64,000 nucleotides of DNA from Verrucomicrobiia bacterium DG1235 (GTDB lineage: Bacteria; Verrucomicrobiota; Verrucomicrobiia; Opitutales; Opitutaceae), in assembly GCA_000155695.1 (NCBI GenBank), contig DS990592.1:2410473-2474472 (forward strand). The letters are read 5' to 3'. This document shows, in pieces, positions 2,293-35,889 of this stretch. A program made the translations under genes and the position numbers. The notes under the pieces are model-generated. The model was not told the DNA's origin and ran no database searches. It saw only the letters and a program-made list of their open reading frames with translations. How positions within the stretch are numbered: the stretch's first letter is position 1; every line of letters starts with the position of its first letter.

Positions 2293-2353
2293 TTTATGTG
2301 TTTTTATGTGTTTGGGTATTTTCAAATATTATCATGTTAGCGACCAAGCGCTA

Positions 2354-15100: not shown

Positions 15101-18100
15101 CGTCTCGCCCGTCTGACCAGGCTCTGGATTCACGGTCAAGGTACGGTCAGTACCACTTCCGCCTAAAGTCATTGCTTCTGGCGAAACAAGGATCGGATCA
15201 CTCGATTCGATCGTGATCTCCAAAAGGTCTGGATTCGTTAGCGCATCCGCGACCGAGAAGGGAATCAATCCGGTCGAGCTATCCGGCACGATCTGAAGAT
15301 TGCCAATCGAGCTTATCGTTGGCGCGTCGTTTCCTGGCGTAACAACCGTTAGCTTGAAGCTTTCCACGACTGTAGTCTCCCCGTCAGAAACCGACAAGGT
15401 AACTTCTGTATTTCCCGTCCTACCGGGATTCGGAGTCGCCGTAAGTGTCCGGTTATTGCCGACACCGCCAAAGGTGATCGCGCCAGAGGGCAGCAAATCC
15501 TCGTTGCTGGAAACGACATCAAGCTCTAGTAGGAACGGAGCCGTTTCGGCATCCCCAACCATGAAGTTTAGAGCCGGCGTGCTCTCGTTTACAAAAATCT
15601 TCTGGTCGTCGATTTCGCTGAGGAACGGGGCCGCGTTCGGCGGATCCAATGGCTCGAGCATGATGGACTGAATCTCGAGATCATTCAGGGCCTGAGTGTA
15701 GATGTGAACCTCGTCGATCAACCCGCTGAAATTTCTGCCGCCCTGCGGCTGATTGCCAATAGCCACCGACGCCGAAGCGTTCTGAGCGATCGCACCGTTG
15801 GCGAAGCGCGTGGCATCAAGCTCTCCGTTCAGGTAGAGCTTCATTTCAGAGCCGTTGTAGGTCGCGGCTACGTGTAACCACTCTCCTTGCTCGATTTTCG
15901 ACTCACTGAGTAGCTGACGCGTATCGCCATTGGTCGTCTTGAGACGCATGCGAATCTTCATCGACCCGCGATCTTCGATCGTGCTCAACATCCAGAAGTG
16001 TTGGTTCTCCTCGGCTCCTAGGGCTTTGGAGATGATACGAGCATCGGATACGCCGAAGTCGTTGGGATTGATCCAGGCGGTAATCGTCATCGCCGAACCG
16101 GGTATGTCGATATTGCCCAAGTCCACGAATCCGCTCGTGCCTGTGAACCGCAGAGCGCGACCCATTCGTCCGTCCTCGGAACGAGAAACGCCAGAACTCA
16201 AGTTTCCGTCATGAAGGTTTTCCGACACGTCAAAGGCAGTCGTTCCAAAGCCTTCCTCAAAAGGCATGCCCAGCCAGAGGCTTTCGGTAATCGGAGGATT
16301 GACGGTCACATCGAAAGTCTTGGAGACGTTAAACTCCCCATCGCTCACAAACACGGAAATCGTGGCGACCCCGGTTTCCCCTTCCTTCGGCGTCACCTCG
16401 ATAGTCCGATCCGCCAGACTGCCGCCAAGCTTGATACCGTTAGCCGATACCAAATCGGTGTTGTTCGAAAATGCCGAAAGCACCAGGTCGCCCACCGCGG
16501 TTTCGCCGTCGCCGATGGTCACGGGAATGACTTCAGTCGATCCGTTGACAACGACGTTGTGATTGGCGAGGTCGCTGATCGTCGGAGCCGTATTGCCAGG
16601 CGTGACCACCGCGATCGTAAACGATTCGCTTTGCTCAGCTTGGCCGTCGCTGACCGTTACCGTGATCTGAGCCGCTCCCGTCTGCCCTAGAGCTGGCGTG
16701 ACGGTAATAGTCCTGTTCGAGCCGCTGCCGCCGACCGAAAGTCCACTCAATGGGACTAGGCTAACATTGTCCGAAGACACTCCTACAAGCAGCTCTTCTG
16801 GAGAGGTCGACTCGTCACCCAATGTCAGTGGGATCGGGCCTGTGCTCGTATCCCCGAAAATAACGATGTCCTCTATCGCCGAAACGCTTGGAGGAATATT
16901 GGCGCCACCGGGACCGGGCAGGCGCTCGTTCATGATTCGGGCAATATCCGTCTCGTCGAAGACTACGGTCTGGATGCGAACCTCGTCGATATAGCCATCG
17001 AAATTGCGTCCGCCCTCCGGCAAGTCACCCACTGCGACTGGCACTCGAGAGTTTCGAGCGATCTCGCCCTCGTGCTCAAGCTCTCCGTCGAGCTCGCCAT
17101 TCACGTAGATCCGCATCATCGCACCGTCGTAGGTAAAAGTCAGATGCGTCCAAACGTTCTCTACCAAATTTCTTTCTCCGATCAACGTTCTCGTTCTGCC
17201 AGTATCGGTCTTCAAACGCGTGCGGAACCTGATGCCTTCCGGAGTGCCAACCGTACTCAGCATCCAATAGTGTTGGTTTTCCTCGGAACCGGCGGACTTC
17301 GAAATGATACGCGCGTCCTTCACGCCGAAATCGTCCGCCCTCACCCAAGCGGAAATCGAAATCTCAGAACCGGTTAGATCAAGATTGCCGAGATCGACCT
17401 GGCCCCCATTTCCCGAAAAATAAAGAGCCTGACCCAACTTACCTTCAATTGCCCGTCGAACGCCACTCGAAATCACTCCATCGTAGCGATAGCCAGAACT
17501 ATCGAGCGCCAATGAACCAACGCTCTCCTCGAAGGGAAGCCCAAGCAGCAAAGTCGGGTTCGGCGGTTCGGACAAGGTAGTCGCGATCACCCGATTCGAG
17601 AGACCCGAGAAATTGCCGATATAGTCGACCGCCATTATCTGGTAGACATAGGTGCTCTCTACATCCAAGCCGGAATCACTGAAGTTCGTCGCAGCAGAGG
17701 TCGAAACCTCCACGCCGTTCCTGTATATCCGGTAAAACGCGATACCCGTGTCGTCGCGCGAGGCTGACCAGCTCAAACTAACGGAAAACGCAGAGGGCTC
17801 GGCCTCTAGATTTTGAGGCGTGGTGGGCGACTGCAGATCGGGAGGCGTGCTTATGCTCGAGATGTTGGACTGAGCAGACTCGTTACCCTGAGAATCCAAG
17901 GCCGTAACCGTGTAGTCTAGGGTTCTGTTCGGGAAGAGCTCGTACTCGGAGAAGGTGTTTCCGCTGCTGAACCCGACTTGCACGCCATCTCGGTAAATAC
18001 GATAACCATTGACGACCTCATCCACGTTGTCGGTGGATGGCTCCCAAGAGAGCGTCGAGGAAGTCTTCGAATCGAGTATCGCTACCAAATTGCTTGGAAT

Positions 18101-20284: not shown

Positions 20285-21106
20285 CTACCAGGGCAGAGGC
20301 ATCTGGATCAGTTCACTCAGCCCCTTGTTCTCGGATTCGTAGTGAGACTTGAGCCTACTCTTCTCCTCAGCAGTCAGCTTGATCAATGGGTAGTCTACAT
20401 CCTTCAACGGCTGAAAAACCTTGAAAAACGCCCGGGCGAGCAATGGCGAAAAGTAGTTCATGTACAAAAAGAGATGCCCTCTTCTCGCATTGACACGCGC
20501 GTCCATGTTCTCAGGAACGAAACTGTCATCCACCTCCAAAAACCGGAATACGCCCTGGAGCGTCTCCAGCTTGTTTTTCCTGATGCCTTCCTCGTAGACG
20601 ACGAAGTGAAACTGTTCGAGCGGGTAGTACTTCAGCCATTCGGAAATATTACTTCGATAGTGGCCCATCGTTATGATCCCGTTGGTGTGCCCGACCTCGT
20701 GAATCCGCTTGAACGGGGCATAGCTGCGGGCCCGGATAAAATGCATGAAAGCGGAAATCGCCCGATCGACCGGATTGCGAAGACTGACGATCAGCTTCAA
20801 ATCCGGAAACTGGTCATGGATCAGCTTTGGGATGTTCGGAATGACGCCCAAGCGAGAGATCTCGTCCTGATTCGGACAACTCCAGAGATAGTTCGGAGTG
20901 AACTCGCCAATCGCCTTTTCACCATTGTGGCCATCGAACAAGCTCCGATACGCATCTATCCCCCTCCGATAGTTCTCCTCCAAATTGAAGAAATGAAGCT
21001 CTTTCTTGGGAGGTCCGTAAATGTCAGGATGTTGCCGCATCATATCGGCCATCCAGCTGGTGCCCCCTTTTTGGGCGCCAATAACCATGAAGTTGGGATC
21101 AGGCAT
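20285..21106 (-). CDS. Sulfotransferase (PAPS-dependent), carbohydrate type
   Basis: Transfers sulfate from PAPS to an acceptor, here probably a sugar of the exopolysaccharide. The 273-residue protein has the 5'-phosphosulfate loop GAQKGGTSW at residues 10-18 and the 3'-phosphate site SLRNPVDRAISAF at about 108-120. ELHFFN and GEFTPNYLW match heparan-sulfate-type and bacterial polysaccharide sulfotransferases. It is a soluble protein with no signal peptide, as expected for an enzyme acting on lipid-linked or nucleotide-linked sugars in the cytoplasm. It follows the flippase gene by 20 bases, and a second, distantly related sulfotransferase gene lies 3.9 kb upstream in the same direction. The acceptor sugar is unknown. 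Confidence 0.9.
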   Translation of the reverse strand: MPDPNFMVIGAQKGGTSWMADMMRQHPDIYGPPKKELHFFNLEENYRRGIDAYRSLFDGHNGEKAIGEFTPNYLWSCPNQDEISRLGVIPNIPKLIHDQFPDLKLIVSLRNPVDRAISAFMHFIRARSYAPFKRIHEVGHTNGIITMGHYRSNISEWLKYYPLEQFHFVVYEEGIRKNKLETLQGVFRFLEVDDSFVPENMDARVNARRGHLFLYMNYFSPLLARAFFKVFQPLKDVDYPLIKLTAEEKSRLKSHYESENKGLSELIQMPLPW

Positions 21107-21126: not shown

Positions 21127-22656
21127 CTAGCTTGCGGGCTCAGAAACCGAGGCGCCGACACCGGGGCGACGCTTCTTCAGAAACCAATCGGCAGCCCGCT
21201 GACGCCAATTGAAAGCGACAGCCATGACCAAGGCGTAAACAACTGAGAATACCGAAATCGACACGATTGCGGTCATGATCTTCGGCTGCTGCGCCAAAAT
21301 AACAAACTTGAAGAGCAAACCAACCGCCGCCCCGGCAAAGGCCGCCAGCAAAGGCTGGTTCCATGTTCGCAGTACATCCATCACCGCGATACCGGTTCCT
21401 TTCAAAGCGTAAATCAAAACAGGGAAATACAAGAGACACGAGCTAACCATATACGCCTTCGCCACTCCAAGCGGGCCAAACGGCAAGCCTATGCAAAAGG
21501 CCGCCACGTTCACCGGAGCGCTTATCATGCCGACGTTGCGCAGAAGATGCGTTCGATCCAATACGACATAAAGCCAAGAAATAGGTTGAGACGCCCCGAA
21601 CAGCAGGGCCGGCACCGAGAGAAAACGAAACAGGCTAGCCGTCTCCATCCACTTCTCGCCAAGAAAAATGAGAACGATGTCATCCGCGAAAACCGCGGTG
21701 CAAGCAACGATCGGAATGACCACCGCGGCGACAAGCGAAGCCGCCTCAACGAAATAGCGCTTCAGTTTCGACAGTTCGCTCTTAGCCCGAGAAAGCACTG
21801 GAATCGCGACCGAAGAAAACGGAGCGTTCACATTTCGAATCGGGAGCAACAGCAGACTGTAGGCACGCGTGTACAAACCCAAGGAAGCCGCCCCCCAATA
21901 CCAGCCAATCAATAGATTGTCCGCGTTTCTGGAAATGTAGTTTACCACATTGTAGACGATGATGTTGCCGCCAAACTTCAGCGTCGAAAGAATCCCTCGA
22001 TCCCACGAGAAGGCCGCCGGAACCCAACCGAGAAAAACCCACGATAAAACAAGCGTTACAAAAGACTTTACGATCTCCAGCCAGACTAAGGCCCAATAAC
22101 CGAAACCGTAGCTCGCCAGTACGATCGCCGCCACGATTCCCGAGAAAATAGACGCTATGTCGACGACCGCGATACGGCCAAACTTCATGTTCCGCCTCAG
22201 CAGCGCCTTATGCTGAACGGAACACCCGTTTATGACGAAAGTTGAAGAAAGCGCGATTAACAAAGGCCCCAGCCTGTCGTCGTGAAACAACAAGGCGAAA
22301 AGCGGCGAAATGAGTACGAGAGCCGCTGCAATCGCTATGCTGAACGCCAGATTAATCCAAAAGAGGAGCGAGGTCTCCTTGTGGCTAATCGTCTCCTTCT
22401 GTACCGTCGCATGTATCAGCCCTCCGTCCGCGATGACGCCAGCAAAACCGGAAACCACCAATGTCATCCCCATCAAGCCATAGTCCTCTGGAGAGAGCAG
22501 TCGGGCCAAGACCGCAGTGGACGAAAGCCTGAGAAGAAACCGGGCCGCTTGTCCGCCAACCGTGAACGATCCGCCACGAACTGCCCGCGCCTTTAAGTTC
22601 TTTTCTAAATGGCCTGTCTCGAAATATTTATCAGTTTTATTCTTTGCTTGAGTCAC
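21127..22656 (-). CDS. Oligosaccharide flippase (Wzx-type, MOP superfamily)
   Basis: Integral membrane protein expected to flip undecaprenyl-linked repeat units to the periplasmic face. The 509 residues contain about 12-14 hydrophobic segments. The N-terminal pattern RGGSFTVGGQAARFLLRL followed by LARLLSPEDYGLMGM is characteristic of the WzxC/Polysacc_synt_3 group. The start is a GTG at 22656; an AGGAG lies 13 bases upstream, which is rather far. The last residues (KKRRPGVGASV) form a basic tail. It sits between a family 2 glycosyltransferase gene and a sulfotransferase gene. No Wzy-type polymerase is seen nearby, so the polymerisation step is not accounted for within the window. Confidence 0.9.
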   Translation of the reverse strand: MTQAKNKTDKYFETGHLEKNLKARAVRGGSFTVGGQAARFLLRLSSTAVLARLLSPEDYGLMGMTLVVSGFAGVIADGGLIHATVQKETISHKETSLLFWINLAFSIAIAAALVLISPLFALLFHDDRLGPLLIALSSTFVINGCSVQHKALLRRNMKFGRIAVVDIASIFSGIVAAIVLASYGFGYWALVWLEIVKSFVTLVLSWVFLGWVPAAFSWDRGILSTLKFGGNIIVYNVVNYISRNADNLLIGWYWGAASLGLYTRAYSLLLLPIRNVNAPFSSVAIPVLSRAKSELSKLKRYFVEAASLVAAVVIPIVACTAVFADDIVLIFLGEKWMETASLFRFLSVPALLFGASQPISWLYVVLDRTHLLRNVGMISAPVNVAAFCIGLPFGPLGVAKAYMVSSCLLYFPVLIYALKGTGIAVMDVLRTWNQPLLAAFAGAAVGLLFKFVILAQQPKIMTAIVSISVFSVVYALVMAVAFNWRQRAADWFLKKRRPGVGASVSEPAS

Positions 22657-22743: not shown

Positions 22744-23739
22744 CTATGAGGAAATTCGACGAAACTGACGAAAGACATCACTCGCCAAGGCACGCCGACG
22801 CGCGAAGATCCACTTTACAACATGCCAATAGCAGCGGAACCGCTCTCCCAAAGTAATTGGAGTCAAGCTAACACATTTGAACAATTCCCACGATCCACGC
22901 CACCACGGGAAAACCATCCGCTTTGCGAGCCTTGGATCGAACCACTCGCTGTAGGCCACGTAGTCCACCTTTTTGTTAAGCTTCTTGTTCGCCAGCATCG
23001 ACATCGACTGAGTTTCGTGGCTGCGCGGAAAAAACAGAACCTCGTCGATTTTAATAAACCGTCCGCGAAGCGCCAGCCAGCACAGCAACAAGGCGTCGCC
23101 TCTCGCGAAAAGCCCAATCATCGGTGTTGCCTTCAAGTCAGACAAGCGAATCAAACCGAAAACCTGAAAGCAGCGATGGCCTCGCGTCAGCTCCGTAAAC
23201 CTCACCACCGGATCCAAATGACCTACCTTCGGGTCTTCCTCGTTTATCATTACCGGGGCAGAGTCCTCGTCGATGATCTGAGCGACAGGATGGGCCAAAA
23301 CCGCATCGGGATCTTTATCCAAATTCTCTACGCACAAGCGAAGAAAATCAGGAGCGCAAAGGTCGTCGTGCGCGGCCCACTTGAAATACGTCCCTCGGGC
23401 ATATTCTACCGCTTTATTGAAATTCGGTCCGGCCCCAATATTCTTATTGTTTCGGAAATAACGAATGCGCTCATCTCGCTTCGCGTAATCGTCGCAAATT
23501 TCTCTCGTGCTATCTGTCGAAGCATTGTCGCATATGATAAGCTCGAAGTCTTCAAAGGTCTGACTTAGAATTGACTCGATCGCCCGAGTTATATACTTCT
23601 CTCCGTTGTAGACAGGCATTCCGATGCTAACTCTCGGCAATTCGCTACTCTTTCGGCTTTCACCATCAAGCAGATTTTCCGACCCCGTCTCAGAAGTCCC
23701 ACCTCCAAAATTCATACTACTAACATTGTCAGCTTTCAT
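22744..23739 (-). CDS. Family 2 glycosyltransferase
   Basis: Inverting GT-A glycosyltransferase that adds one sugar of the repeat unit. After an unusual about 35-residue polar N-terminal extension comes the classic start VSIGMPVYNGEKYI, then ESILSQTFEDFELIICDNAS, the NIGAGPNFNKA region, and an acidic metal-binding site in KWAAHDDLCAPDF. Length is 331 residues. The ATG at 23739 has an AAGGA ten bases upstream. The gap to the upstream glycosyltransferase is 18 bases, consistent with co-transcription. Donor and acceptor cannot be told from the sequence. Confidence 0.9.
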   Translation of the reverse strand: MKADNVSSMNFGGGTSETGSENLLDGESRKSSELPRVSIGMPVYNGEKYITRAIESILSQTFEDFELIICDNASTDSTREICDDYAKRDERIRYFRNNKNIGAGPNFNKAVEYARGTYFKWAAHDDLCAPDFLRLCVENLDKDPDAVLAHPVAQIIDEDSAPVMINEEDPKVGHLDPVVRFTELTRGHRCFQVFGLIRLSDLKATPMIGLFARGDALLLCWLALRGRFIKIDEVLFFPRSHETQSMSMLANKKLNKKVDYVAYSEWFDPRLAKRMVFPWWRGSWELFKCVSLTPITLGERFRCYWHVVKWIFARRRALASDVFRQFRRISS

Positions 23740-23757: not shown

Positions 23758-24990
23758 TCAAGCGCACCGCGTCGCGTCGCTCGAGGCAACTTGCACGTGT
23801 TCACTAAACACGGCCTCGAACCGATCCGCGACCGTGCCTATCGAAAAGTTCTCCTCCGCGTACGCTCGCGCCGAAGCACCCATCCCTACGCTTTCTTCCC
23901 TGTCTAAAAGCAAGCTGTCGACGCCTTCCAGAAATCCGAGCTCGTCGCCTGGATCAACCACGATACCTGCGCCGAGCCTCGTCAGCAGCCGCGCCGCCAA
24001 ATTCTCCTTAGGCATGGCTGCAACCGTTGGCTTGCCCGCGCACAAATAGGAGAGAACCTTGGATGGCACCGAAAACACGCCCGCTTCGGGCTCTAGCAAA
24101 GCAAGAAACATTTCCGCAGAGCCTAATACATCCGCAAGAGATTCGAAAGGCTGGAAGGGCAGCAAAACTAGGTTATGCAAATCTTCCTCCTGCTTACGTC
24201 TCGCTAAATAGTCTGCTCCAGGACCTTCCGAAATAACCACAACCCGAACATCGGAATGTTTCTTCATCCGCTCGGCCAGCGTAGCGAGAGGGGCAGGATT
24301 ATGCTTCATCGCGAGTGTTCCGCTATACATGAGAACTCGCTTATCGTCTAAACCGTGCTCGACAGACCAGCTGTTTACACTGCTACGCAGAGGAATATCC
24401 GAAATGACCCCCCAATTTTCAATTGTCGTAGAATCCCCATCCGACACGCCAAAATCAGATAGCATAGGCATAAAATCCTCACTGATAGGAATCACGTGAG
24501 CACTGTCACGGAAGCACTTTCTATCGATACCACGATAATAAGCGCCGGCCAATTTTCCGAGTATATAAGACTTTTTTCCGGCTAGATTCGATACTGCTAT
24601 GGAGTAGAAATCTTGTACCCAAGAAACGAAAGGAATCCCCATAATTGTACACTGCTGCACTCCCAGCCATTGAGGCTCGGATGGCGTATTTCCGCTCAAT
24701 ACAATATCGGGCTTCTCTTCTACAATCGCTCTCTGAAAGGCGCGACCATACTCGATTTCATACTTACGCCTCTTAACGAACTTATACTTATCTCTACGGT
24801 AATTCGCATTCATCTCGATTTCCCGAAAAGACAAGGTGTCCGGATCTCCATCCTGGCTCTTGAGTATTCCACGAGGAGTCAACAAGCCACGCGCAAACGA
24901 ATGGACAACCTCCATTCCGCGTCGCGCTAGTTCGCGGCTCAACCCAATAACAAAAGGATGACCGGCATAGTCATGAATAAGTACCTTCAT
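23758..24990 (-). CDS. Family 4 glycosyltransferase (WcaI-like)
   Basis: Retaining GT-B glycosyltransferase of the GT4 type, 410 residues. The N-terminal half has KVLIHDYAGHPFVIGLSREL, placing it with WcaI-like colanic-acid enzymes. The C-terminal donor-binding half has a VLMYSGTLAMKHNP motif and EPEAGVFSVPSKVLSYLCAGKP, in which the glutamates correspond to the EX7E-type site. No signal peptide is seen; such enzymes are membrane-associated on the cytoplasmic side. It begins five bases after the stop of the upstream sulfotransferase gene and lies 18 bases before a GT2 gene, a tight operon arrangement. Confidence 0.9.
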   Translation of the reverse strand: MKVLIHDYAGHPFVIGLSRELARRGMEVVHSFARGLLTPRGILKSQDGDPDTLSFREIEMNANYRRDKYKFVKRRKYEIEYGRAFQRAIVEEKPDIVLSGNTPSEPQWLGVQQCTIMGIPFVSWVQDFYSIAVSNLAGKKSYILGKLAGAYYRGIDRKCFRDSAHVIPISEDFMPMLSDFGVSDGDSTTIENWGVISDIPLRSSVNSWSVEHGLDDKRVLMYSGTLAMKHNPAPLATLAERMKKHSDVRVVVISEGPGADYLARRKQEEDLHNLVLLPFQPFESLADVLGSAEMFLALLEPEAGVFSVPSKVLSYLCAGKPTVAAMPKENLAARLLTRLGAGIVVDPGDELGFLEGVDSLLLDREESVGMGASARAYAEENFSIGTVADRFEAVFSEHVQVASSDATRCA

Positions 24991-24995
24991 AATGA

Positions 24996-25892
24996 TTACC
25001 AGTTTCCGGATTCTTCGTACCCTAGCTTGACGAGCAGATCTCCAGTCGCAGCTTTAAAAGCGCTCGTTAGGTCCTCGTTAAAATCAGCCTTCCAACCTCC
25101 GCTTCCTCCCCTTCTAAAGGTATGCGAACGATGTGGATCTATCGCTTCTTGAGAGGCAGCCACCATTTCCTCAACATCGATGCCCGCTCCCACCTGATCC
25201 TCATAATGGCAAAATATTTTCCTCAAGACCTCTTCCTGCCTTTCGGAAACCAAATCCTCGTAGGTGATTGAGCACACGCTAGGATTGTTAATCCAACCCT
25301 CGAACATTTTGAAGCGCTCCCCGATATTTGGATACCTCACACCTCCTTCGGGCAGCCCGCGAATAGAGAGCAGAACACGCTCCGTTTGTGAGCCTAGCCG
25401 CTTAAATCGATTATGCATACGATGCCACCGATTCATATGGGCCAAATAGTAAGCCTCTGAGACAACGACATCTCTTGGGTCACGATAAATAAAGTAGTGT
25501 ACTATATTCTTATCGCGCAAGGCCTCGGCAACAGGTTCGCTATAGTTCAGATGAGCGCAAACTAGCTCTCCTGAGGCGACTCCACGAATCGACTTCGCCA
25601 TCTTGACGGGAGCGCGCTCCTTCAAAGTCAAACTAGGATTAGAAGCCCAGAAGTTCCCCCAGTCCCTCAATCCGGGCAGCACTCCGAGGATTTGGGACAG
25701 AAGATGGGTTCCGCTCTTGGGAAAGGAATTTACCAAAACCGCGGGATTCCGCTTCCAGTCGGTTCCATCGCTCGAAAGCCGAGAACAAAAACGCGGGATC
25801 GAAGCTCCGTACCTCCACGCTTTCTTAGTGATTATATTCTTTCTAAAATTCACAATTATAAAAACATCGAACGGGCTTGAGCTGCGACTCAA
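24996..25892 (-). CDS. Sulfotransferase domain protein (Sulfotransfer_1 type)
   Basis: Second PAPS-dependent sulfotransferase of the locus, about 298 residues. It is closer to the cytosolic Sulfotransfer_1 family: 5'-phosphosulfate loop SFPKSGTHLLSQIL, 3'-phosphate site YRDPRDVVVSEAYY, and the C-terminal FRRGGSGGWKADF, equivalent to the family's RKGxxGDWK motif. It has no ATG near the N-terminus. I chose the TTG at 25892, which overlaps the stop of the upstream glycosyltransferase (ATTGA) and has GGAAGTAGGG just before it, a sign of translational coupling; a TTG at 25910 is an alternative. Being so different from the other sulfotransferase, it probably modifies a different position or sugar (inference). 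Confidence 0.85.
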   Translation of the reverse strand: MSRSSSPFDVFIIVNFRKNIITKKAWRYGASIPRFCSRLSSDGTDWKRNPAVLVNSFPKSGTHLLSQILGVLPGLRDWGNFWASNPSLTLKERAPVKMAKSIRGVASGELVCAHLNYSEPVAEALRDKNIVHYFIYRDPRDVVVSEAYYLAHMNRWHRMHNRFKRLGSQTERVLLSIRGLPEGGVRYPNIGERFKMFEGWINNPSVCSITYEDLVSERQEEVLRKIFCHYEDQVGAGIDVEEMVAASQEAIDPHRSHTFRRGGSGGWKADFNEDLTSAFKAATGDLLVKLGYEESGNW

Positions 25893-27133
25893 TGCCCTAC
25901 TTCCACGCAATCCTTGGCAGGCAACAATTCCTCTTCGACTACGTGATCTGTGAAACCGACGATCTTTAAATAACTGTTCGTCGTCTCGTCTAAGGAGAAT
26001 TTTGCAGAAGCAATCCTGCGAGCGCTACAGCCCATTTTGGACCAGTATCGTTTGTACTCCAACGCGCGGGACAAGCCTTTGCGATAACCCTCAACCGAGG
26101 GGTCCGAGATCAGCCAACCGGTTAGCCCATCTACAACCGTTTCAGATGGCCCACCCAGCTTGTAAGCGAGCACCGGCCTTCCCATCAACATAGCCTCTAC
26201 AACTGAAAGGCCAAACGGTTCCGCATCTATACGACTGTTTACAACAACATCCGCCACTAGAAAATACGGTCTCGGATCGTCAACTTGGCCTACAAACTTT
26301 ATATACTCTGAAAAACCCTCCTTTTCCACACGTTCGACAATCGACTTGCCAAAACCAGAGTCCAAAGGTCCACCCACTAACAAAAGCGTAAACCTTTCTC
26401 CCTTCTTATAGAGCTGAATGGCTGCGTCTACGACCCTATCCTGCGCTTTCTCCGGATCGAAGCGCGCCGCAATCATAAACACGGGCAGTTGCTCGCTCAC
26501 GCCTAGCTCCGTTTTAGATATTGTCCTAAATTTTGCAGCAATCGAAAAATAGGAAACATTGACGCCGGGATAAGAAACCTTCGCCTTAGCCAAAGAGTCA
26601 CCGAGGGAACTTGCTGTGTGACGACTGTTCGCGATGGCTTGGACCCCAAAGAGCTTACACAGAAACTGAAGACTCAAAGGCTGCAGCTCCATTGGAAGCT
26701 TCGATTGAATTGTGTTGTGAATATGCCAGTAGGCGGGAATGCCAGAGAGCCTCGACGCCAAGCCACCTGCGATTAGCAGAGAGTTGTTCGAGACATGAAT
26801 CCAATTTGGCTTGAAAGACTTTATGGCGTTGGCGACAGCCCTTTGATTTGCGACGGCGGAGTACATTAGTCGCATGCCGCCGGCCAAAAAAGTCCAGCCC
26901 TTACCCTTGGTCTTATTGAGCGTTCTTTTGGCGCCCACATGCCATATCGGATAACCGGCTTCCTCAACTTCCTTCGAAAACGGTCCTGAATACATGGATA
27001 CAAATCCAATATCAATCGACCGATCCTTGAGCGTATTCATTAAGTCAAGAAATGCCCGGCGGAAACCATAGCTTTCGACATCCCCTAAGATCAACCACAA
27101 CAAGCGAGGATGTTTCTGTTCTGTTTTACTCAT
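25889..27133 (-). CDS. Family 4 glycosyltransferase
   Basis: GT-B glycosyltransferase, about 414 residues. The N-terminal half has RLLWLILGDVESYGFRRAFL and an acceptor-side WHIHNTIQSK. The donor half has VFMIAARFDPEKAQDRVVDA and the GT4 signature DAEPFGLSVVEAMLMGRPV, with the two glutamates of the EX7E motif. I chose the ATG at 27133 because GAAGAGGAG lies directly upstream; a longer form starting at 27154 is possible. Its stop overlaps the start region of the following sulfotransferase gene by four bases, so the two are translationally linked. The sugar transferred is unknown. Confidence 0.9.
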   Translation of the reverse strand: MSKTEQKHPRLLWLILGDVESYGFRRAFLDLMNTLKDRSIDIGFVSMYSGPFSKEVEEAGYPIWHVGAKRTLNKTKGKGWTFLAGGMRLMYSAVANQRAVANAIKSFKPNWIHVSNNSLLIAGGLASRLSGIPAYWHIHNTIQSKLPMELQPLSLQFLCKLFGVQAIANSRHTASSLGDSLAKAKVSYPGVNVSYFSIAAKFRTISKTELGVSEQLPVFMIAARFDPEKAQDRVVDAAIQLYKKGERFTLLLVGGPLDSGFGKSIVERVEKEGFSEYIKFVGQVDDPRPYFLVADVVVNSRIDAEPFGLSVVEAMLMGRPVLAYKLGGPSETVVDGLTGWLISDPSVEGYRKGLSRALEYKRYWSKMGCSARRIASAKFSLDETTNSYLKIVGFTDHVVEEELLPAKDCVEVGH

Positions 27134-27269
27134 TATCTCCTCTTCTTTATTCATGGCAGCTTAACCTCGGTAAGGGTTCTAGCATTTTTTATTTCCAAGC
27201 AAAAAGTGGACTTAACACTTTATGATACGAGCTTAGATAAACTCGCTCAATCGCACACTCTGGAAGAGG

Positions 27270-29714
27270 TCATTCCTTCTTCTCCTGCTCTGACATCAGT
27301 TTTCCGATCAGGCTTTTCGAACCGCTGTTCTTGTTGTTAAGCTTCAAAGGAGTAGATTTTAGCTTGGATTTTGCTGTTTCCGCAACTTTACCATTCGCCT
27401 CTACCGCCTCGAGATTGTCATCATCCTCCACGTCCTCAGCCATCAACTTACCTACCATGCTCTTGGACTTAACTCGTCCAGCCCCCTTGGCATGCTTCTT
27501 GATGTTATTATGATACTTGTACTTGCCCTTTCCTCCATAGGCTAAACGAGGATTCAAACTCCCGAAGGAGTAGTCATTAAGCACCAGTCCCAAAACAGGA
27601 GCACCCGTCGAATCGATATCGCCTATCACTTGCCTAATCTGCGAAATCGGGGCCTTGGACTCCCGAGCGACAAGCAAGGTTTCTCCCACCGATTTTGCGA
27701 ATATCAATGCATCGGGGTACAGGCCAACCGGCGGAGTATCTACTATAATCACCTCAAAGGTCTCCTCCAACTTCCTCAGTAATGCATCAATCTTGGTCGA
27801 AACAAGCAACTTGGAAGGCAGCGGAAAAACACCACCAGCAGGCAACAGGTATGCTCCTCCTTTAAGCTTCTGAATCCCTAAGGGTGAATCCTCTCCGTAG
27901 ATGTCATCCATGGGATATCCTTCCTCCGCCCAGCGTATCAATCCACCCGATTTTTTAATGCGATTAAACTGATGCAAACAAGGCCGGCGCAGGTCGCCAT
28001 CAATGATTATCGTCTTACGCTTTATCTGCACGAAGCCAGAGGCTACATTTGCCGCGATCGTCGACTTCCCCTCCGAGGTCGTGGTGCTCGTCACCACAAA
28101 CGACTTTGGACCTTCCTGCTTCGAGGTCAATTCGAGCTGAGCCACTACCGCCATAAACGACTCGACCTTTGCGAGGTCGAGATTGTCTCTAACGACATGC
28201 GGCCTATCAGCCACCTTCACCCTGCTTAGCTTGGGTATTCCACCGAGCAGTCCCTTTCCGAATTCTTTCTCTATATCAGTCGCGCACTTCAGACGCTGAT
28301 CAAACAACTGCATCCCCAAGGGCACTCCGAAAAACGCCCCGCCAGCCAGCAACACAGTAAACGCAGCCACCAGCTTGCGCTTGGCTAATTTCGGTTTTGC
28401 GATAAAAGCCGGGTCCACCACGCGCATCACGTCAACCGGCAAGTTACTAACCACGTTCGCGTTGCTAACTCTTCGCAAGAGACTCGTCAGCGCTTCTCTC
28501 TTCGCGTCTACTTCGCTTCCTATTACAAGAAACTGGTCGGCTAAACGCCCGACCTCGATACTCTCGGTAAATTTTTTGCGGAAATCGTCGTCGAGACGCT
28601 TTTCGAGGGAGACCACGTTCGTGTACTGCCCTTCCAAGTCCTTGAGGGCCATTTCCATGTTTCGGTTCAGATTCCCTTCCACCGCCTCAATACGACTATC
28701 GAGATCCCGCATCTTAGGGTGATTTCTGCCATACCGAAGCGCCATAACCTCTCTTTGACCATTGAGCTTGTCTAGCTCCTGGCGCAGACGCTCGTTGTTC
28801 GCGAAATTCGCTAGGAAAGGGTTGTCAAAAGGTCTCCCATCTTCGCCAAGCGCTGCCTTTACATTCCCTAACTTTGTCTCGAGGCGAAAGCGATCCAAGC
28901 GCGCCTCTATGCGATTAGCATCTATCCCCTTAAGCCTTTCGGCCAGCAGGTCCTGATTCTCTTCCAAAGAAATAACATTGTTCCTTTCCCGGAAGTCGCG
29001 CTGCTTCCCTTCTAGCTCTGAAATCTCTGCCTGCAGCTGCTCGGCTTGAAGTCGCAACATCTCCGCTGCCGCTTGGTTCGTTTCCTTGATCTCCCTCTGG
29101 ACGAGCTTCAAGTAAGCCGCCGTCATTCGGTCTGCAACCATTAGCGCGATCTCCGCCTCAGGGTGCCGGAAACTCAATGTGAAAAACTCGCGGTCTCTCT
29201 GCCTGGTCGCATCCATGCGACCCGCTAGAATCTTTTCGAACGCGGACATCGAGGGCACACCGTCCCCCTTCACAAACGCTCTTACGATGGAAGCCTTCTC
29301 GTCTTCCGTGAACTCGCTCGCCAGCTCTACACTAAAGCGACGGCTTTTCATCACTGATAGGTGATTCTGGAGAAAATTTTCTTGAGCGTCCTTTTTGCGC
29401 TCGCGCGCCTGCTGATCGGAATGAAGCAACTCATCTAGAGGACTCTGCGCGAGCATGGTCGACACAGCCGTGTGCTCAGGCTTGTCGTTGAGAAATAGAT
29501 AAGCAAATGCGGACCCAACAACTAAAGCCGACACAACTCCGGAAAGCCAACGACTTCGAATAATCGCAAAAAACGACCTGATTTGGGTTACGACCCCCGC
29601 CAGCGTGTCTTCCGTATTCGAATTTCGACTACCAGACGCACCATACCCTGCCGAAGCATGAGGTCTCAAAGACTTTTTTGTTTCAGAATGTGCCATACGA
29701 GAACCTTTCTTCAT
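27270..29714 (-). CDS. Wzz-type chain-length regulator fused to BY-kinase (Wzc-like)
   Basis: Polysaccharide co-polymerase and tyrosine autokinase that controls polymer length and export in Wzx/Wzy systems. Two membrane segments (SGVVSALVVGSAFAYLF, and LVAAFTVLLAGGAFFGVPL near residue 445) flank a long periplasmic coiled-coil region. The cytoplasmic kinase has Walker A TTTSEGKST (near 550), Walker A' IIIDGDLRRP (near 578) and Walker B VIIVDTPPVG (near 666). The tail has only a few tyrosines (around LAYGGKGKYKY) and is mostly lysine-rich with acidic patches. It carries a motif twice: SKSMVGKLMAE and SKSLIGKLMSE. I chose the ATG at 29714, preceded by GGAGGAGGGGT; ATGs at 29732 and 29696 also exist. 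Residue numbers count from 29732. Confidence 0.92.
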   Translation of the reverse strand: MKKGSRMAHSETKKSLRPHASAGYGASGSRNSNTEDTLAGVVTQIRSFFAIIRSRWLSGVVSALVVGSAFAYLFLNDKPEHTAVSTMLAQSPLDELLHSDQQARERKKDAQENFLQNHLSVMKSRRFSVELASEFTEDEKASIVRAFVKGDGVPSMSAFEKILAGRMDATRQRDREFFTLSFRHPEAEIALMVADRMTAAYLKLVQREIKETNQAAAEMLRLQAEQLQAEISELEGKQRDFRERNNVISLEENQDLLAERLKGIDANRIEARLDRFRLETKLGNVKAALGEDGRPFDNPFLANFANNERLRQELDKLNGQREVMALRYGRNHPKMRDLDSRIEAVEGNLNRNMEMALKDLEGQYTNVVSLEKRLDDDFRKKFTESIEVGRLADQFLVIGSEVDAKREALTSLLRRVSNANVVSNLPVDVMRVVDPAFIAKPKLAKRKLVAAFTVLLAGGAFFGVPLGMQLFDQRLKCATDIEKEFGKGLLGGIPKLSRVKVADRPHVVRDNLDLAKVESFMAVVAQLELTSKQEGPKSFVVTSTTTSEGKSTIAANVASGFVQIKRKTIIIDGDLRRPCLHQFNRIKKSGGLIRWAEEGYPMDDIYGEDSPLGIQKLKGGAYLLPAGGVFPLPSKLLVSTKIDALLRKLEETFEVIIVDTPPVGLYPDALIFAKSVGETLLVARESKAPISQIRQVIGDIDSTGAPVLGLVLNDYSFGSLNPRLAYGGKGKYKYHNNIKKHAKGAGRVKSKSMVGKLMAEDVEDDDNLEAVEANGKVAETAKSKLKSTPLKLNNKNSGSKSLIGKLMSEQEKKE

Positions 29715-29849
29715 ACCCCTCCTCCGACTCATTCGGCCCAGAGAGAATATGACTGTTTGGTTTGAATTTTGACATTAAGCGGCCGTCTTGTGATTGGCCT
29801 TTCACCAACACAAAACACATCGAAAAATAGATCACATACAGAGCGCGAG

Positions 29850-29999: not shown

Positions 30000-31436
30000 T
30001 CAGTAAGCGTTGTTAAAATGGATGAACGTTCTAAACTTGATTACCAGGTCTAGCCACAGGGACCAATTCTCTATGTAATCAAGGTCATATCGAATACGAT
30101 CTTCCAAACTGGTGTTTCCGCGAAGTCCGTTAACTTGAGCCCAGCCTGACATCCCCGGTCTAACCGAATGACGGCTTTGATAATGAGGAATCTCATCCAA
30201 AAAATCTACAATCAGTTCCGGACGCTCAGGTCGCGGACCAACCAGACTCATATCACCTTTTAGAACATTCCAAAATTGCGGAATCTCATCGATATTCCAC
30301 TTCCGCATAAAGGCCCCTATCTTTAGTCGTCTATCATCATCAGGTCTGCACCAGCGAGCTTTGCCATCTGCCTCCGAGGCTAGCTTCATCGAGCGAAACT
30401 TGTAGATAGTAAACGAAGCCCCTCCTTTTCCAGTGCGGACCTGCCGATACAAAATAGGGCCAGGGCTTTCTTTCCAAATAAGGAAAGCAACGACTGGAAA
30501 GATCGGCAAGGAGATCAACAAACCGAAAAGAGCACCGATGATGTCTACGATCCGCTTCACCATTCTGCTGAATATCTGATTCTGCGGCAGTTCCGCCACA
30601 CCCATCACATGCTGATTCCCAATAAGCTTCAATCCAAGGCAACGCGTAAAAACCTCAAAATGATCAGGGATTAAATTAAACTCCACGAAGTGCCTCTCAC
30701 TGAGAGTGGCAATTTTCAATATCTCTCCGCGAGAAATGTCTGAATCCGCAACCGCCACTACGTCGATATCGTAATTCAAAAAGACCTCCTCCAAGTCATC
30801 CAACGAACCAAGCAGAGGAAGCCCCCCTCTCTCAGACTTCGAAGCGTACCGAGACGCCACAACCCCCACTATCTCATACGGATCTTCAGGATTCGCGGAC
30901 ATTTTCTCCGCCAGCTTCCGGTTGTTTACTGACCCGCCAACAATCAATACCCTTCTCGTCAATCCCTTGCCGAAGCCTACCTTGCTCCAGAAGCGCAAAT
31001 AGGACAAACGCCAAAAAGGAAGAATCAAACACATCAGAGCGCACGAGTAGCCAACAAACAATCTAGATATTGGTGGATTAAGTTTTAGGATCAGCGATGA
31101 CCCAAGAAACATAACCGCCCAATATAACGCTATCTTCAACAGTCTCGCAGTCGATTTCTCGACTGATAACGCGACTTTCGAATCATATAGGGAAAGGTTT
31201 TCCGCAAGCAGGATAAACAAGGCAAAACCAGCCGAATAGTGCAGCAGATAAGCCGTCAGCTCTGGTCGACTTCCACCATCGACCACTCCGATGTTCAAAA
31301 CATAACGAAGGAAAAAAGCAGTCGCCATACAGACGGCAACCAAAACGCAGTCGCCAATAAACAAGACAGAAGTCGTTGCCGTCTTGCTCTTGGCTTGACC
31401 GCTACGGACACTTGGCAATGCAGTAGTCGGATTCAT
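30000..31436 (-). CDS. Undecaprenyl-phosphate sugar-1-phosphate transferase (WbaP/WcaJ type)
   Basis: Polyprenyl glycosylphosphotransferase that starts repeat-unit synthesis by moving a sugar 1-phosphate onto undecaprenyl phosphate. The 478 residues comprise four N-terminal membrane segments (such as VLFIGDCVLVAVCMATAFF), a nucleotide-binding-like CoA_binding_3 region (RRVLIVGGSVNNRKLAEKM), a re-entrant hydrophobic segment near 300, and the C-terminal catalytic domain with YKFRSM, IDEIPQFWNVLKGDMSLVGP and RPERPE. The invariant aspartate/glutamate and PRP motifs are intact. This is the full-length WcaJ/WbaP layout rather than the short PglC form. The first sugar (glucose, galactose or other) cannot be told. 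It lies between the OPX export gene and the kinase gene, the usual place in such operons. Confidence 0.93.
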   Translation of the reverse strand: MNPTTALPSVRSGQAKSKTATTSVLFIGDCVLVAVCMATAFFLRYVLNIGVVDGGSRPELTAYLLHYSAGFALFILLAENLSLYDSKVALSVEKSTARLLKIALYWAVMFLGSSLILKLNPPISRLFVGYSCALMCLILPFWRLSYLRFWSKVGFGKGLTRRVLIVGGSVNNRKLAEKMSANPEDPYEIVGVVASRYASKSERGGLPLLGSLDDLEEVFLNYDIDVVAVADSDISRGEILKIATLSERHFVEFNLIPDHFEVFTRCLGLKLIGNQHVMGVAELPQNQIFSRMVKRIVDIIGALFGLLISLPIFPVVAFLIWKESPGPILYRQVRTGKGGASFTIYKFRSMKLASEADGKARWCRPDDDRRLKIGAFMRKWNIDEIPQFWNVLKGDMSLVGPRPERPELIVDFLDEIPHYQSRHSVRPGMSGWAQVNGLRGNTSLEDRIRYDLDYIENWSLWLDLVIKFRTFIHFNNAY

Positions 31437-31537: not shown

Positions 31538-32203
31538 TTAGAATGTGCGCTCGGGAACAAAGACGACATCCCCAGGATACAGGTCAAAACTCTCGGGCGT
31601 CTTTGATCGTCGGCGTTCCTCAAGGTAAGCTTCTACATTTACGGTAATTCTTTCTTCCTCGCCGTCTTCCCCGGGTCGGGTGACTTGCACTGTTTCCGCT
31701 CGTGCCAATCTAGTAAGGCCGCCGGCGAGCGTAATGGCCTCAACAATACTCATGCGATCCGCTTCGAGTGGAAATAGGATTTGTTTGGGCTTATTGACTT
31801 GCCCCAGAACTGACACCGTGCGTTCGGCATACTGCTCAAGAACGAGAATTACCTGAGGGTTCACGAAAAATTCGCCGTCTATATAAAGATTTCTGATTTT
31901 GTCCTCAGCCTCCCGAAGCGTTAAACCGGAAACTTCCACCAAACCGATCATCGGCAAAGGGAAACCGCCGCTAGCTGATACTCTCTGAACCAGTCGAGTG
32001 TCGGGCTCTTCGTATATCTGGAACTGTACTAAATCGCGTGGAGAAATCCGATAGTCGCTTAATCCCGTGTCGTCAGCCATCGCCTCGACAAGCCCCATCG
32101 AGAACACGCCAAGCAGAACGCCAAGAACAGGCCAAAACGCTTTCATCGCCAAAGCAACGAATCTAAATCCGATCCAATTCATGAGACCAAACCGAATAAA
32201 CAT
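31538..32203 (-). CDS. Short periplasmic OPX polysaccharide export protein (Wza-family, one SLBB)
   Basis: Export protein of the outer-membrane polysaccharide export family, 221 residues. It has an N-terminal hydrophobic signal segment (WPVLGVLLGVFSMGLVEAMA) with no lipobox cysteine, a Poly_export domain (DYRISPRDLVQFQIYEEPD), one SLBB domain (VSVLGQVNKPKQILFP through ITLAGGLTRLA), and ends at DLYPGDVVFVPERTF. The C-terminal amphipathic helix by which E. coli Wza crosses the outer membrane is absent. Its start overlaps the stop of the beta-barrel gene (TAATG), so the two are translationally coupled. The likely arrangement is a periplasmic OPX ring that docks to a separate outer-membrane barrel. 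Confidence 0.9.
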   Translation of the reverse strand: MFIRFGLMNWIGFRFVALAMKAFWPVLGVLLGVFSMGLVEAMADDTGLSDYRISPRDLVQFQIYEEPDTRLVQRVSASGGFPLPMIGLVEVSGLTLREAEDKIRNLYIDGEFFVNPQVILVLEQYAERTVSVLGQVNKPKQILFPLEADRMSIVEAITLAGGLTRLARAETVQVTRPGEDGEEERITVNVEAYLEERRRSKTPESFDLYPGDVVFVPERTF

Positions 32204-33348
32204 TAGTAACGCAGGCCGCTGGAGAACGTCACTGAATTACGATCCAGGGAGTATCCTGCCACACTCGAATCGCTCGCGAGCAAGTTGGCGGATATCCGCG
32301 CGAAGAATCGGCGAGTGAACGAATATTCTAAATTTCCAGAGAATCTCCAAAAGTCGTCCGTTCGAGTATCATCCCTCAATTCAAATTCGTAGTCTGAGTT
32401 TCCTCTCTCTAAAGTCGTAGAAAACGATAGGCCACGCCCCAGCTCTCTTTTGATTTTTAAGATAGCAGCGGTTTTTAGCTCTACACTTCCATTCGCAGTA
32501 AACTCATATTCACTTTCGAAGCCCAATCCTGCAGTCAGCTGCGCCGAAACGTTCCAAGTGAGATCGACAGACGCATTTGGTCCGGTATCCGAAAACTCTC
32601 TGATACCCGAAAACTCAGAACGTCTTACACCGAGAAAAATATCTCCTTTCACCTTTGGCGAAATGCTGCCTCTCCCCCTTAAGCCAAAATAGTGATGCGT
32701 TGAATCCGAACCTGCCCCAGAGTCCGTTTCCGACTCGCGCAATCCGTACTCCGCGCTCCAACGTCTTTCCGGCCCCCATGAGTGGCTTGTGCCTACTCTG
32801 AATTGCCTTGAACGCGTCGTGCTGTACCCGTCTCGCGAACGATCTGTCGTACTGGTCTGAATCAAGCCCACGATTCCTGTCTTAGGAGAGTAAAGCCATT
32901 CGCCTGAAAGCCTGCCGCCGTAAATCGAAGGCTGAATTCTTTGACCACTGTCAATGTTCACCTGCGAAACCTTGTTCCAAAACACTCCTGCATCCCAGAA
33001 CGTCACGTCGACCTTCGTATCGGGATAGGCGGCGTTAATCTCAATCCCTCCGTCGACGTAGCTGTCGTCGCTCTCGGAAAAGTAATGGGTCTTGGCGATA
33101 TTCGCGTCAAAATTCAATGAAGTCAGGCTGTTGTGACGAGCAATCCTCATCGATTGCGAACCCAGCGCGAACCCATCGCTAACCTCATTCGCCCGAGAGC
33201 CGAGGATATTTGAGTCGTAGCCCACCCCCGCGTTTGTCTCAAAGGTCGTCGCCCAGCGCTTCAGCAAGTTTTGGCAATGCCCAATGCTTAGGGATACGAA
33301 TAAAAAAGCAACGACTGCCAACAGAAGACGTAAGCGGCTAACACGCAT
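32203..33348 (-). CDS. Outer-membrane beta-barrel protein, probable polysaccharide export pore
   Basis: A 381-residue secreted protein with a signal peptide (LRLLLAVVAFLFVSLSIGHC, cleavage around SIGHC-QN). The mature part has regularly alternating polar/hydrophobic strands rich in aromatic residues, ending VTFSSGLRY, which is the pattern of an outer-membrane barrel of perhaps 16-18 strands. No enzymatic motif is seen. It is encoded between the RfaH-like gene and the OPX gene, overlapping the latter by one base. In Myxococcus, OPX proteins that lack a membrane helix work with barrels encoded nearby, so a role as the outer-membrane pore for the polymer is a reasonable inference. The strand count is an estimate. 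Confidence 0.75.
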   Translation of the reverse strand: MRVSRLRLLLAVVAFLFVSLSIGHCQNLLKRWATTFETNAGVGYDSNILGSRANEVSDGFALGSQSMRIARHNSLTSLNFDANIAKTHYFSESDDSYVDGGIEINAAYPDTKVDVTFWDAGVFWNKVSQVNIDSGQRIQPSIYGGRLSGEWLYSPKTGIVGLIQTSTTDRSRDGYSTTRSRQFRVGTSHSWGPERRWSAEYGLRESETDSGAGSDSTHHYFGLRGRGSISPKVKGDIFLGVRRSEFSGIREFSDTGPNASVDLTWNVSAQLTAGLGFESEYEFTANGSVELKTAAILKIKRELGRGLSFSTTLERGNSDYEFELRDDTRTDDFWRFSGNLEYSFTRRFFARISANLLASDSSVAGYSLDRNSVTFSSGLRY

Positions 33349-33397: not shown

Positions 33398-33901
33398 TCA
33401 GTCGGAATTCAAGGCAAGATGAGAGCGAGATATGGTAACTTTCGTCTCACTCGTCAGAAGGGTGAGCAAAATAGCGACGCGAGAACCTTCGTTGAGGTTC
33501 TGCAGCACGGTTCCCATCATTCCCTGAAACGGACCTTCGAGAACTTCCACGTTTTCGCCGCACTGGAAACTGTCATCGACCGCGGGACTGAGCATCAGGT
33601 CCTCCGAATTCTCTTTGATCAAGTCCACTACCTCATCCTCCACTACCACAGGCACTCCGCCGCGTATCACTAGGCCTAGAGAATCGGGGCTATACTGCAC
33701 GGCTCGGAAATACTGCGCTGCATCAAACCGGCAAAAGAGGTATCTCGGAAAAAGCGGAGAAATCACGTCCCTCTTCCTACGCCTCACAACCTTCCTCGTT
33801 TTGATGCGCGGGTAACATACCTGGAGACCAAGCGACTCCTCCAAGTAGCGGGCCAGCATCGGTTCTTTTTTTGGTTTAGTATGCAGACAATACCAGTTCA
33901 T
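33398..33901 (-). CDS. RfaH-like transcription antiterminator (NusG paralogue)
   Basis: Specialised NusG-family elongation factor, 167 residues (E. coli RfaH has 162). The NGN domain starts NWYCLHTKPKKEPMLARYLE and has the family hallmark ISPLFPRYLFCRFD; a KOW-type C-terminal domain has VEVLEGPFQGMMGTVLQNL. RfaH-type proteins load onto RNA polymerase at ops sites and suppress pausing and termination over long operons. The gene is first in a same-strand series running to the left edge of the window (about 33 kb), and its leader contains an exact ops sequence 132 bases upstream of the start. That fits autogenous recruitment to this operon. The start is the ATG at 33901; the ribosome binding site is weak. 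Confidence 0.9.
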   Translation of the reverse strand: MNWYCLHTKPKKEPMLARYLEESLGLQVCYPRIKTRKVVRRRKRDVISPLFPRYLFCRFDAAQYFRAVQYSPDSLGLVIRGGVPVVVEDEVVDLIKENSEDLMLSPAVDDSFQCGENVEVLEGPFQGMMGTVLQNLNEGSRVAILLTLLTSETKVTISRSHLALNSD

Positions 33902-34033: not shown

Positions 34034-34045
34034 CACGCTACCGCC
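34034..34045 (-). promoter_or_regulatory. ops element (RfaH recruitment and pause site)
   Basis: Read on the minus strand the sequence is GGCGGTAGCGTG, identical to the 12-base ops element of enterobacterial RfaH-dependent operons. It has the right orientation, lies 132 bases upstream of an RfaH-like gene, and precedes a very long exopolysaccharide operon. Upstream, TGTTTAATCTCAGG loosely resembles the TGTTAAGCCAGG part of the enterobacterial JUMPstart sequence. In known systems, RNA polymerase pauses at ops and the non-template strand forms a small hairpin read by the RfaH NGN domain. A chance exact match in this leader is unlikely. Function here is inferred. Confidence 0.8.
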
Positions 34046-34060
34046 ATTTTGGTGCCTGAG

Positions 34061-34090
34061 ATTAAACAAAACTCACCAATTCTTAGTAAA
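34061..34090 (-). promoter_or_regulatory. Candidate sigma-70 promoter of the exopolysaccharide operon
   Basis: On the minus strand, TTTACT (34090-34085) and TTTAAT (34066-34061) are separated by 18 bases and match the -35 and -10 consensus at 4 of 6 and 5 of 6 positions. Transcription would start near 34054, about ten bases before the ops element. The real promoter could also lie further upstream in the non-coding stretch, giving a longer leader. Confidence 0.3.
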
Positions 34091-35864: not shown

Positions 35865-35889
35865 GCCCCGAGCAAGGCCGAGAAACCTC

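Follow-up and report, generated by a model that had tools for sequence, protein, structure and literature searches.

An ops/JUMPstart-type signal associated with an RfaH-like NusG paralog in Verrucomicrobiota

Our comparisons of genome sequences indicate that Verrucomicrobiota carry a real and conserved ops/JUMPstart-type signal, tied to an RfaH-like paralog of NusG and lying outside the Proteobacteria. The ops element, best known from E. coli, loads a helper protein on RNA polymerase so that long operons for sugar coats are fully read. The window analysed here, a stretch of 64,000 nucleotides from Verrucomicrobiia bacterium DG1235, contains GGCGGTAGCGTG, the exact ops 12-mer, at positions 34034-34045 of the minus strand, 132 nt before the ATG of a gene for an RfaH-like protein. 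Both the element and its spacing and orientation had been claimed in a first-pass annotation; a pattern scan of the 64 kb confirmed the former, and the latter was borne out as well. The gene product is an NGN-KOW protein by Pfam (NusG, 1.4e-14). In the literature that we searched, with subscription journals mostly outside its scope, no case of RfaH with ops is described for Verrucomicrobia/Verrucomicrobiota. RfaH-like proteins outside the Proteobacteria are already known, since RfaH has been found in 23 of 117 phyla, with about 95% in Proteobacteria (Wang 2020, PMC7593976), and a 2026 preprint describes rfaH genes beside long operons in non-metamorphic members (PMC13015549).

The neighbours named in the annotation, that is, an OPX protein, a sugar transferase, a Wzz-kinase and a 16.9-kb ORF, were all found on the strand of ops (Pfam/NCBIfam, ORF list). 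From their family assignments, the window genes make up a sulfated-exopolysaccharide locus of more than 30 kb, in which the 16.9-kb ORF (5623 aa) is the long distal load; the same-strand genes after the paralog presumably form one transcript. The features of the window are:

34049..34079, minus strand: putative JUMPstart-like RNA hairpin, stem TTGGTG/CACCAA, 3 nt upstream of ops (predicted fold)
34034..34045, minus strand: ops element GGCGGTAGCGTG (exact match)
33398..33901, minus strand: RfaH-like NusG paralog, NGN-KOW, 167 aa (Pfam NusG 1.4e-14; NCBIfam RfaH 77 bits)
32203..33348, minus strand: BBP2_2 outer-membrane beta-barrel (Pfam 4.5e-14)
31538..32203, minus strand: OPX polysaccharide export protein (NCBIfam EpsE 2.4e-28, below cut-off)
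30000..31436, minus strand: initial polyprenyl glycosylphosphotransferase (NCBIfam EPS_sugtrans 5.8e-118)
27270..29732, minus strand: Wzz/tyrosine autokinase (NCBIfam eps_fam 2.1e-33)
25889..27154, minus strand: glycosyltransferase family 4 (Pfam)
24996..25910, minus strand: sulfotransferase (Pfam Sulfotransfer_1 2.8e-12)
23758..24990, minus strand: glycosyltransferase family 4, WcaI-like (NCBIfam below cut-off; Pfam)
22744..23739, minus strand: glycosyltransferase family 2 (Pfam 4.6e-34)
21127..22656, minus strand: polysaccharide flippase, Wzx-type (Pfam Polysacc_synt_3 4.7e-81)
20285..21106, minus strand: sulfotransferase (Pfam 6.1e-20)
3182..20053, minus strand: giant 5623-aa LamG/Ig/PKD surface protein (ORF; Pfam, scanned as two halves)
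2354..3127, minus strand: nucleotidyl transferase (Pfam 2.8e-20)
1237..2325, minus strand: NAD-dependent epimerase/dehydratase, last same-strand gene in the window (Pfam 4.5e-42)

A giant Salmonella adhesin that needs RfaH is of a size comparable to the 5623-aa protein (PMC7593976). None of the window-locus proteins scanned with NCBIfam and Pfam matched a Wzy family. Upstream of the leader, at 35079-36684 of the window, stand two genes resembling ornithine-lipid acyltransferase models (OlsA and OlsB types), with scores below cut-off.

How telling is the match to ops? The other eight window matches to GGCGGTAGCGTG have two mismatches each, and near matches (up to two mismatches) number nine in the window versus 5.46 expected, which is no enrichment. 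The whole 5.78-Mb genome holds three exact copies (reversed-pattern control, one), one of them inside an ORF (L001) and two in leaders (the window and L003/L047). An exact copy is therefore rare per leader; by our own arithmetic, one strand of any single 200-nt leader would hold it with a probability of about 2e-5 to 5e-5. The looser GGCGGYAGCNTG was not enriched genome-wide, with 12 matches versus 20 for the reversed control, and 10 of the 12 lie within ORFs of at least 372 aa, the two others being in leaders (window, L003); thus the motif by itself proves nothing, and it is the context that does. Promoters and terminators found in the leader numbered two and two, versus 1.8 and 2.4 expected from shuffles, and ARAGORN found no tRNA-like sequence after ops. 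The bases that form the non-template DNA hairpin of ops (C3, G4, G5, A7 and G8) are all exact in the window; this DNA hairpin is predicted only, and for the bare 12-mer it is weak (-0.9 kcal/mol).

The context was studied in genomes confined to Verrucomicrobiota, where the paralog was matched in at least 173 of 372 genomes of the order and in 71 of 288 phylum-level genomes. The seven closest homologues of the window paralog share 42-48% identity with it. Seven of the eight closest NGN loci, window included, carry GGCGGYAGCNTK on the gene strand, 43-274 nt before the NGN gene; in the eighth (L052) an exact ops is found further along the locus, in front of a GFO/IDH/MocA gene. A 12-mer of the GGCGGTAGCGTG type, in the leader and in the direction of transcription, is thus present at the window site and conserved in relatives. 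One genome (G004) shares with the window the gene order NGN, BBP2, OPX, sugar transferase, Wzz-kinase, GT4, and the same-genus genome G006 has an exact ops in front of the Wzz-kinase gene of a related cluster. Two Verrucomicrobiota MAG loci (L036, L037) contain L176 and L179, from genomes of the window's family, letter for letter.

The same signal was found in other families (f1, f2 and so on are the family numbers of the tool, f1 being that of the window). Our main set of 82 loci (847 kb) consisted of 60 chosen loci, 19/20 earlier regions, L036, L037 and the window; the 60 were hand-picked by family, with f2 and f20 well covered and f19 thin, though f19 is the commonest among the matches listed. 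Over these 82 NGN loci the paralog strand has 42 matches to GGCGGYAGCNTN and the opposite strand two (reversed control, 7 and 11), and in 20 phylum-level loci KGCGGYAGCNTN occurs 15 times versus once on the opposite strand (reversed control, 3 and 0), both totals including some far-off or coding matches (L063, L137, L144, L213, L216, L222, L225). One of the two opposite-strand GGCGGYAGCNTN matches (L058) lies in the leader of a divergent gene, and about 10 of the 15 same-strand KGCGGYAGCNTN matches sit just behind the paralog gene. When all 8-mers with at most one Y/R position were counted from -300 to +900 of the paralog start, with the paralog match excluded, GCGGYAGC was the most frequent and the most strand-biased, being present in 50 of 102 loci on the paralog strand and in 6 of 102 on the other; the evidence for conservation is this strand contrast and not the fraction 50/102, which is not a population frequency because f19 is under-sampled. 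At the 50 sites, the positions that had not been selected for were G1 in 45, T11 in 48 and G12 in 38. The invariant columns of our site alignment A1 are not evidence, because its sites were selected on GCGGYAGC and T11.

Loci of f2, f3 and f20 have the site some 570-620 nt past the paralog start, directly after the paralog gene and ahead of the next one. GGCGGYAGCNTN is absent from the paralog strand in 41 of the 82 loci; five of these carry TGCGGTAG variants and L119 carries GGCGGAAG, and a count of other common 8-mers in the 41 gave nothing clear beyond the TGCGGTAG variants. No ops-like site was seen near the gene in loci of f4, f11, f19, f21 and f22 (e.g. L138, L146, L132); five f19 genomes carry a GCCAAG-ops site elsewhere, and among 25 loci first viewed at +-1.5 kb, mostly f19, the motif was on the paralog strand in three and on the other strand in none. 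The first-pass annotation had named absence of the 12-mer from close relatives as a refutation; this check did not refute the claim, the element being conserved in leaders of NGN-paralog/polysaccharide operons, both in the window's own family and in others. Judged by this conservation context, chance is ruled out as the source of the window ops.

The second leader-borne exact ops of the DG1235 genome (L003/L047) stands 2.0 Mb from the window, about 115 nt before an ORF matching Wzy_C, after which come a nucleotide-sugar transferase, a methyltransferase, a GT2, a weak sulfotransferase match and a GT4. A Wzy-type gene, missing from the window-locus matches, is found at the head of the second ops-led cluster. 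The distance of 2.0 Mb suggests action in trans, and the paralog probably acts on this cluster as well, while control of its own operon, as the annotation had supposed, would fit the layout of the window.

We also searched with composite patterns, which join ops to sequence found beside it. The own-family composite pattern (CACCRNNAT + GGCGGYAGC) gave 29 matches in 24 of 200 genomes (reversed control, 5), 19 of which continue with NTG as ops does. Thirteen of these 19 are outside same-strand ORFs and six in the 5' part of an ORF called from its first start codon; the 10 non-NTG matches are all inside ORFs of at least 235 aa. Sought at E <=1e-7, the paralog was present in 16 of 17 other genomes with an NTG site (17 of 18 with the DG1235 genome) and in none of the six genomes with non-NTG matches only, composite site and paralog presence not being independent because many sites adjoin the paralog. 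The base rate of the paralog in the family is at least 11 of 77, the 77 having been counted from another listing that we took as the same draw of 372 genomes. The NTG site without a paralog match is in G361; the paralog is weak in G489 and partial in G440. The pattern of the other class, GCCAAG followed by ops, gave 33 sites, spread over 32 of 372 genomes (reversed control, 1). Among the 30 of these with loci, 15 have the paralog just before them and two more are known paralog loci; one of the 13 remaining sites is inside an 831-aa ORF. At the eight sites away from the paralog where the downstream gene was scanned, it was Wzz in three, SIS_2 in four and of no clear family in one. In six genomes (G251, G062, G244, G292, G149, G160) the paralog match is on one draft contig and the GCCAAG-ops site on another. 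In five loci (L229, L233, L234, L243, L252) a gene of 176-211 aa with a weak MarR-type helix-turn-helix match, below cut-off, precedes an ops-like site away from the paralog, and Wzz or SIS genes lie downstream.

We propose that the window ops is an ops/JUMPstart-type recruitment site for the RfaH-like paralog encoded downstream, a reading that we hold to be likely. RNA polymerase in the leader would make an RNA hairpin and then pause with the 3' end at ops T11, and the ops bases of the displaced non-template strand would pair (C3:G8, G4:A7) to give a small DNA hairpin. The paralog would read this hairpin through its NGN domain, displace the housekeeping NusG and remain on the polymerase, which would then pass pauses and Rho-dependent termination up to the end of the >30-kb locus. 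The paralog would thereby support its own synthesis, and may act in trans on the ops-led cluster that would supply a Wzy-like ligase/polymerase and further transferases. We infer pausing, DNA reading, exclusion of NusG and antitermination by the paralog, and with them the function of the pair, from the likeness of layout and sequence.

Does the protein retain the means of reading ops? The best NCBIfam model for the window paralog is RfaH (TIGR01955), with 77.3 bits, below its 144.5-bit cut-off; UpxY (NF033644; 67.9, cut-off 100), NusG (52) and LoaP (NF033641; 41, cut-off 125) follow, and all of them are below cut-off. E. coli RfaH contacts ops via K10, H20, R23 and R73, and reads G5 and the flipped T6 (PMC5995543). 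At these four positions the window protein has, by alignment, K, Y, E and P, so that K10 alone is kept, and at the autoinhibition residues E48, I93 and F130 it has S, V and V. Of 12 close homologues that bear the motif, 11 retain K10 and two retain R73; position 20 is occupied by Y in 10 of them and by H in two. K10 and R73 are retained in 20 and 18, respectively, of the other 32 loci with the motif, and in 9 and 10 of the 38 without it. At base 6 of ops, the flipped T that RfaH reads, the 45 loci counted divide into 23 with T and 22 with C, a split that goes with differing residues 13, 68 and 73 but tracks family lines. From these residue and motif counts it follows that DNA and layout are conserved and that the residues used for reading in E. 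coli mostly are not. The annotation had envisaged an NGN-ops code conserved over a very large distance; this held for the DNA side and failed for the protein side, with one residue of four, and the case may best be read as a conserved ops DNA with a rewired protein. AlphaFold2, run on three sequences only, gave the paralog a pLDDT of 38.5. A tree placing E. coli RfaH beside the window clade had 96/90 support but a very long branch, and was not relied on.

With three of the four RfaH contact residues lost, it could be argued that ops acts in these bacteria as a strong consensus pause which, together with the RNA hairpin, slows the polymerase, and that the paralog is recruited in cis without reading DNA. 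The slowing would serve ribosome loading, NusA or the housekeeping NusG. The flanks G1, T11 and G12 do fit a consensus pause, and half of the sampled paralog loci have no motif. The ops element is described as a consensus pause to which RfaH determinants are added (PMC7819879). However, the central CGGYAGC, which lies outside the consensus pause, is part of the most conserved 8-mer, the paralog accompanies the site in 17/18 versus 0/6 genomes, though many sites adjoin the gene, and sites distant from the paralog lead polysaccharide genes. For these reasons we consider a mere pause unlikely.

The recruitment of the paralog by ops DNA has also to be weighed against recognition of RNA, because an RNA stem-loop is often predicted directly upstream of ops. 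At 41 sites behind the paralog, the adjoining 42 nt have a mean z of -1.85, with 29/41 below -1.5, versus a mean of -0.23 and 9/82 in 82 control windows; the corresponding values are -1.73 and 8/14 for 14 own-family sites, and -0.04 and 3/28 for their 28 controls. The last paired base is 1 nt from ops in 21/41 sites behind the paralog (0-4 in all) and 3 nt in 10/14 own-family sites. The hairpin of the window agrees in position with those of the 14 own-family sites; its stem TTGGTG/CACCAA is seen on folding the 45 nt before ops alone, with a z of -0.59, short of significance, and no longer belongs to the best fold when ops is added. With a hand-written stem, 40 sites behind the paralog gave a covariation of 0.245, versus 0.146 +- 0.016 when shuffled and at most 0.140 when slid, and 79% of cells were paired, versus at most 45% when slid. 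Two of the five pair measures were unremarkable, namely both-side changes (7; slid, up to 7) and further pair types (17; slid, up to 18).

A first covariance model (R1), for which the RNAalifold structure kept only two pairs, was replaced by R2, trained on Verrucomicrobiota only; its stem was hand-written from f2/f20 sequences, so that f2/f20 agree with R2 in part because the stem was taken from them. R2 recovers the rfbB JUMPstart of E. coli with an E of 0.0029, as the fourth of 33 matches in 766 kb, and gives 0.3 on waaQ and 0.24 on the window site, much of each score being expected to come from the 12-mer. Over the whole DG1235 genome it gave one match (E 0.83), at neither leader ops site, and since both were missed, R2 does not describe the hairpin class of the window's own family. 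The E. coli leaders read CTGG...CCAG-G-ops (rfbB) and CAGG...CCTG-G-ops (waaQ), in the same layout as the Verrucomicrobiota sites. The Rfam JUMPstart model (RF01707) gave 60 and 55 bits on these rfbB and waaQ controls; in eight Verrucomicrobiota loci it reported no site up to E 5 and none at its gathering score.

The paralog might then bind the RNA hairpin, as LoaP binds a hairpin of its leader RNA (PMC12691694), and the 12-mer would be an accompanying pause only. In favour of such a mode, both site classes on average show a hairpin beside ops, and one of them shows covariation. Nevertheless, the sequence and loop of the hairpin vary widely between classes while the 12-mer is nearly fixed, the hairpin is weak at the window site, and the window paralog has 41 bits with LoaP against 77 with RfaH; we regard RNA recognition as improbable. 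According to PMC11001881, the pause at ops in E. coli is of another kind than RNA-hairpin pauses.

A chance 12-mer or a recent import from enterobacteria, which the frequency of the loose motif in coding regions might favour, deserves hardly any credence, since it is contradicted by the conservation counts, that is, by the bias towards one strand, the fixed placement and the hairpin surroundings seen in many families of Verrucomicrobiota, and the protein is 40-48% identical even to the closest homologues found. The annotation had offered joint acquisition with the gene as an alternative; a recent import of this kind is unsupported, because site and paralog occur together across the phylum, with protein identities of about 30-48%.

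How does the proposed recruitment site compare with known systems? With RfaH-ops of Enterobacteriaceae it shares the identical 12-mer, its orientation and leader placement, long polysaccharide operons, sites away from the regulator gene, and an NGN-KOW paralog of NusG. It differs from RfaH-ops in belonging to another phylum, in a paralog that heads its own presumed target, in a base 6 that is T or C, and in a window paralog with K10 only, below the RfaH equivalog cut-off. As in JUMPstart, listed for γ-Proteobacteria in its founding paper (PMC2864571), a predicted hairpin lies directly before ops in the polysaccharide leaders of the site sets, the stem at the window being weak, and R2 recovers the rfbB example; the 1-nt spacing is the commonest in one Verrucomicrobiota class, whereas the window's family has 3 nt instead. 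UpxY of Bacteroides is likewise a paralog placed first in the polysaccharide operon that it serves (PMC7819879), and the window protein has 68 bits with its model NF033644, but this is below the 100-bit cut-off, and an ops-like signal for UpxY is absent from the available part of the account in PMC7819879. LoaP of Bacillus is similar in being a NusG paralog with a long operon and a leader hairpin; unlike in Verrucomicrobiota, where the most conserved part is the ops-type DNA element, LoaP binds RNA (PMC12691694).

We lean towards the hypothesis that hairpin-plus-ops is an old code common to Verrucomicrobiota and Proteobacteria, read by NusG paralogs with rewired DNA-contact residues. In the available parts of RfaH papers from 2019 and 2020, the mode of recruitment is given as unknown for NusG paralogs other than RfaH (PMC6391919, PMC7593976); for LoaP, later work points to an RNA hairpin (PMC12691694). 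An old code, if true, would mean that operon-encoded NusG paralogs besides RfaH have a signal for their recruitment, and would place self-loading in cis beside action in trans in the same genomes. A large natural set of ops/JUMPstart-like sites outside the Proteobacteria is now linked to a diverged, operon-encoded paralog, and this raises the questions of how different residues would read a non-template DNA hairpin that hardly varies, and whether loading at ops came before autoinhibition and trans action.

Some further observations concern the surroundings of the paralog and of the DG1235 genome. Directly before the paralog, and often overlapping it, loci of f2 and f20 such as L054:3594-4106 and L055:6393-6899 have an ORF of about 145-210 aa; the two that were scanned had no Pfam match, and its product is possibly a conserved partner of the paralog. 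The paralog matches on plasmids were four Bradyrhizobium records, with 27% identity. In the DG1235 genome, at about 2139-2793 of L040, there are ORFs on both strands with repeated peptides of the VSIRAPAKGR- and VAPSRGRGLKL-type, which we take to resemble a translated CRISPR array.
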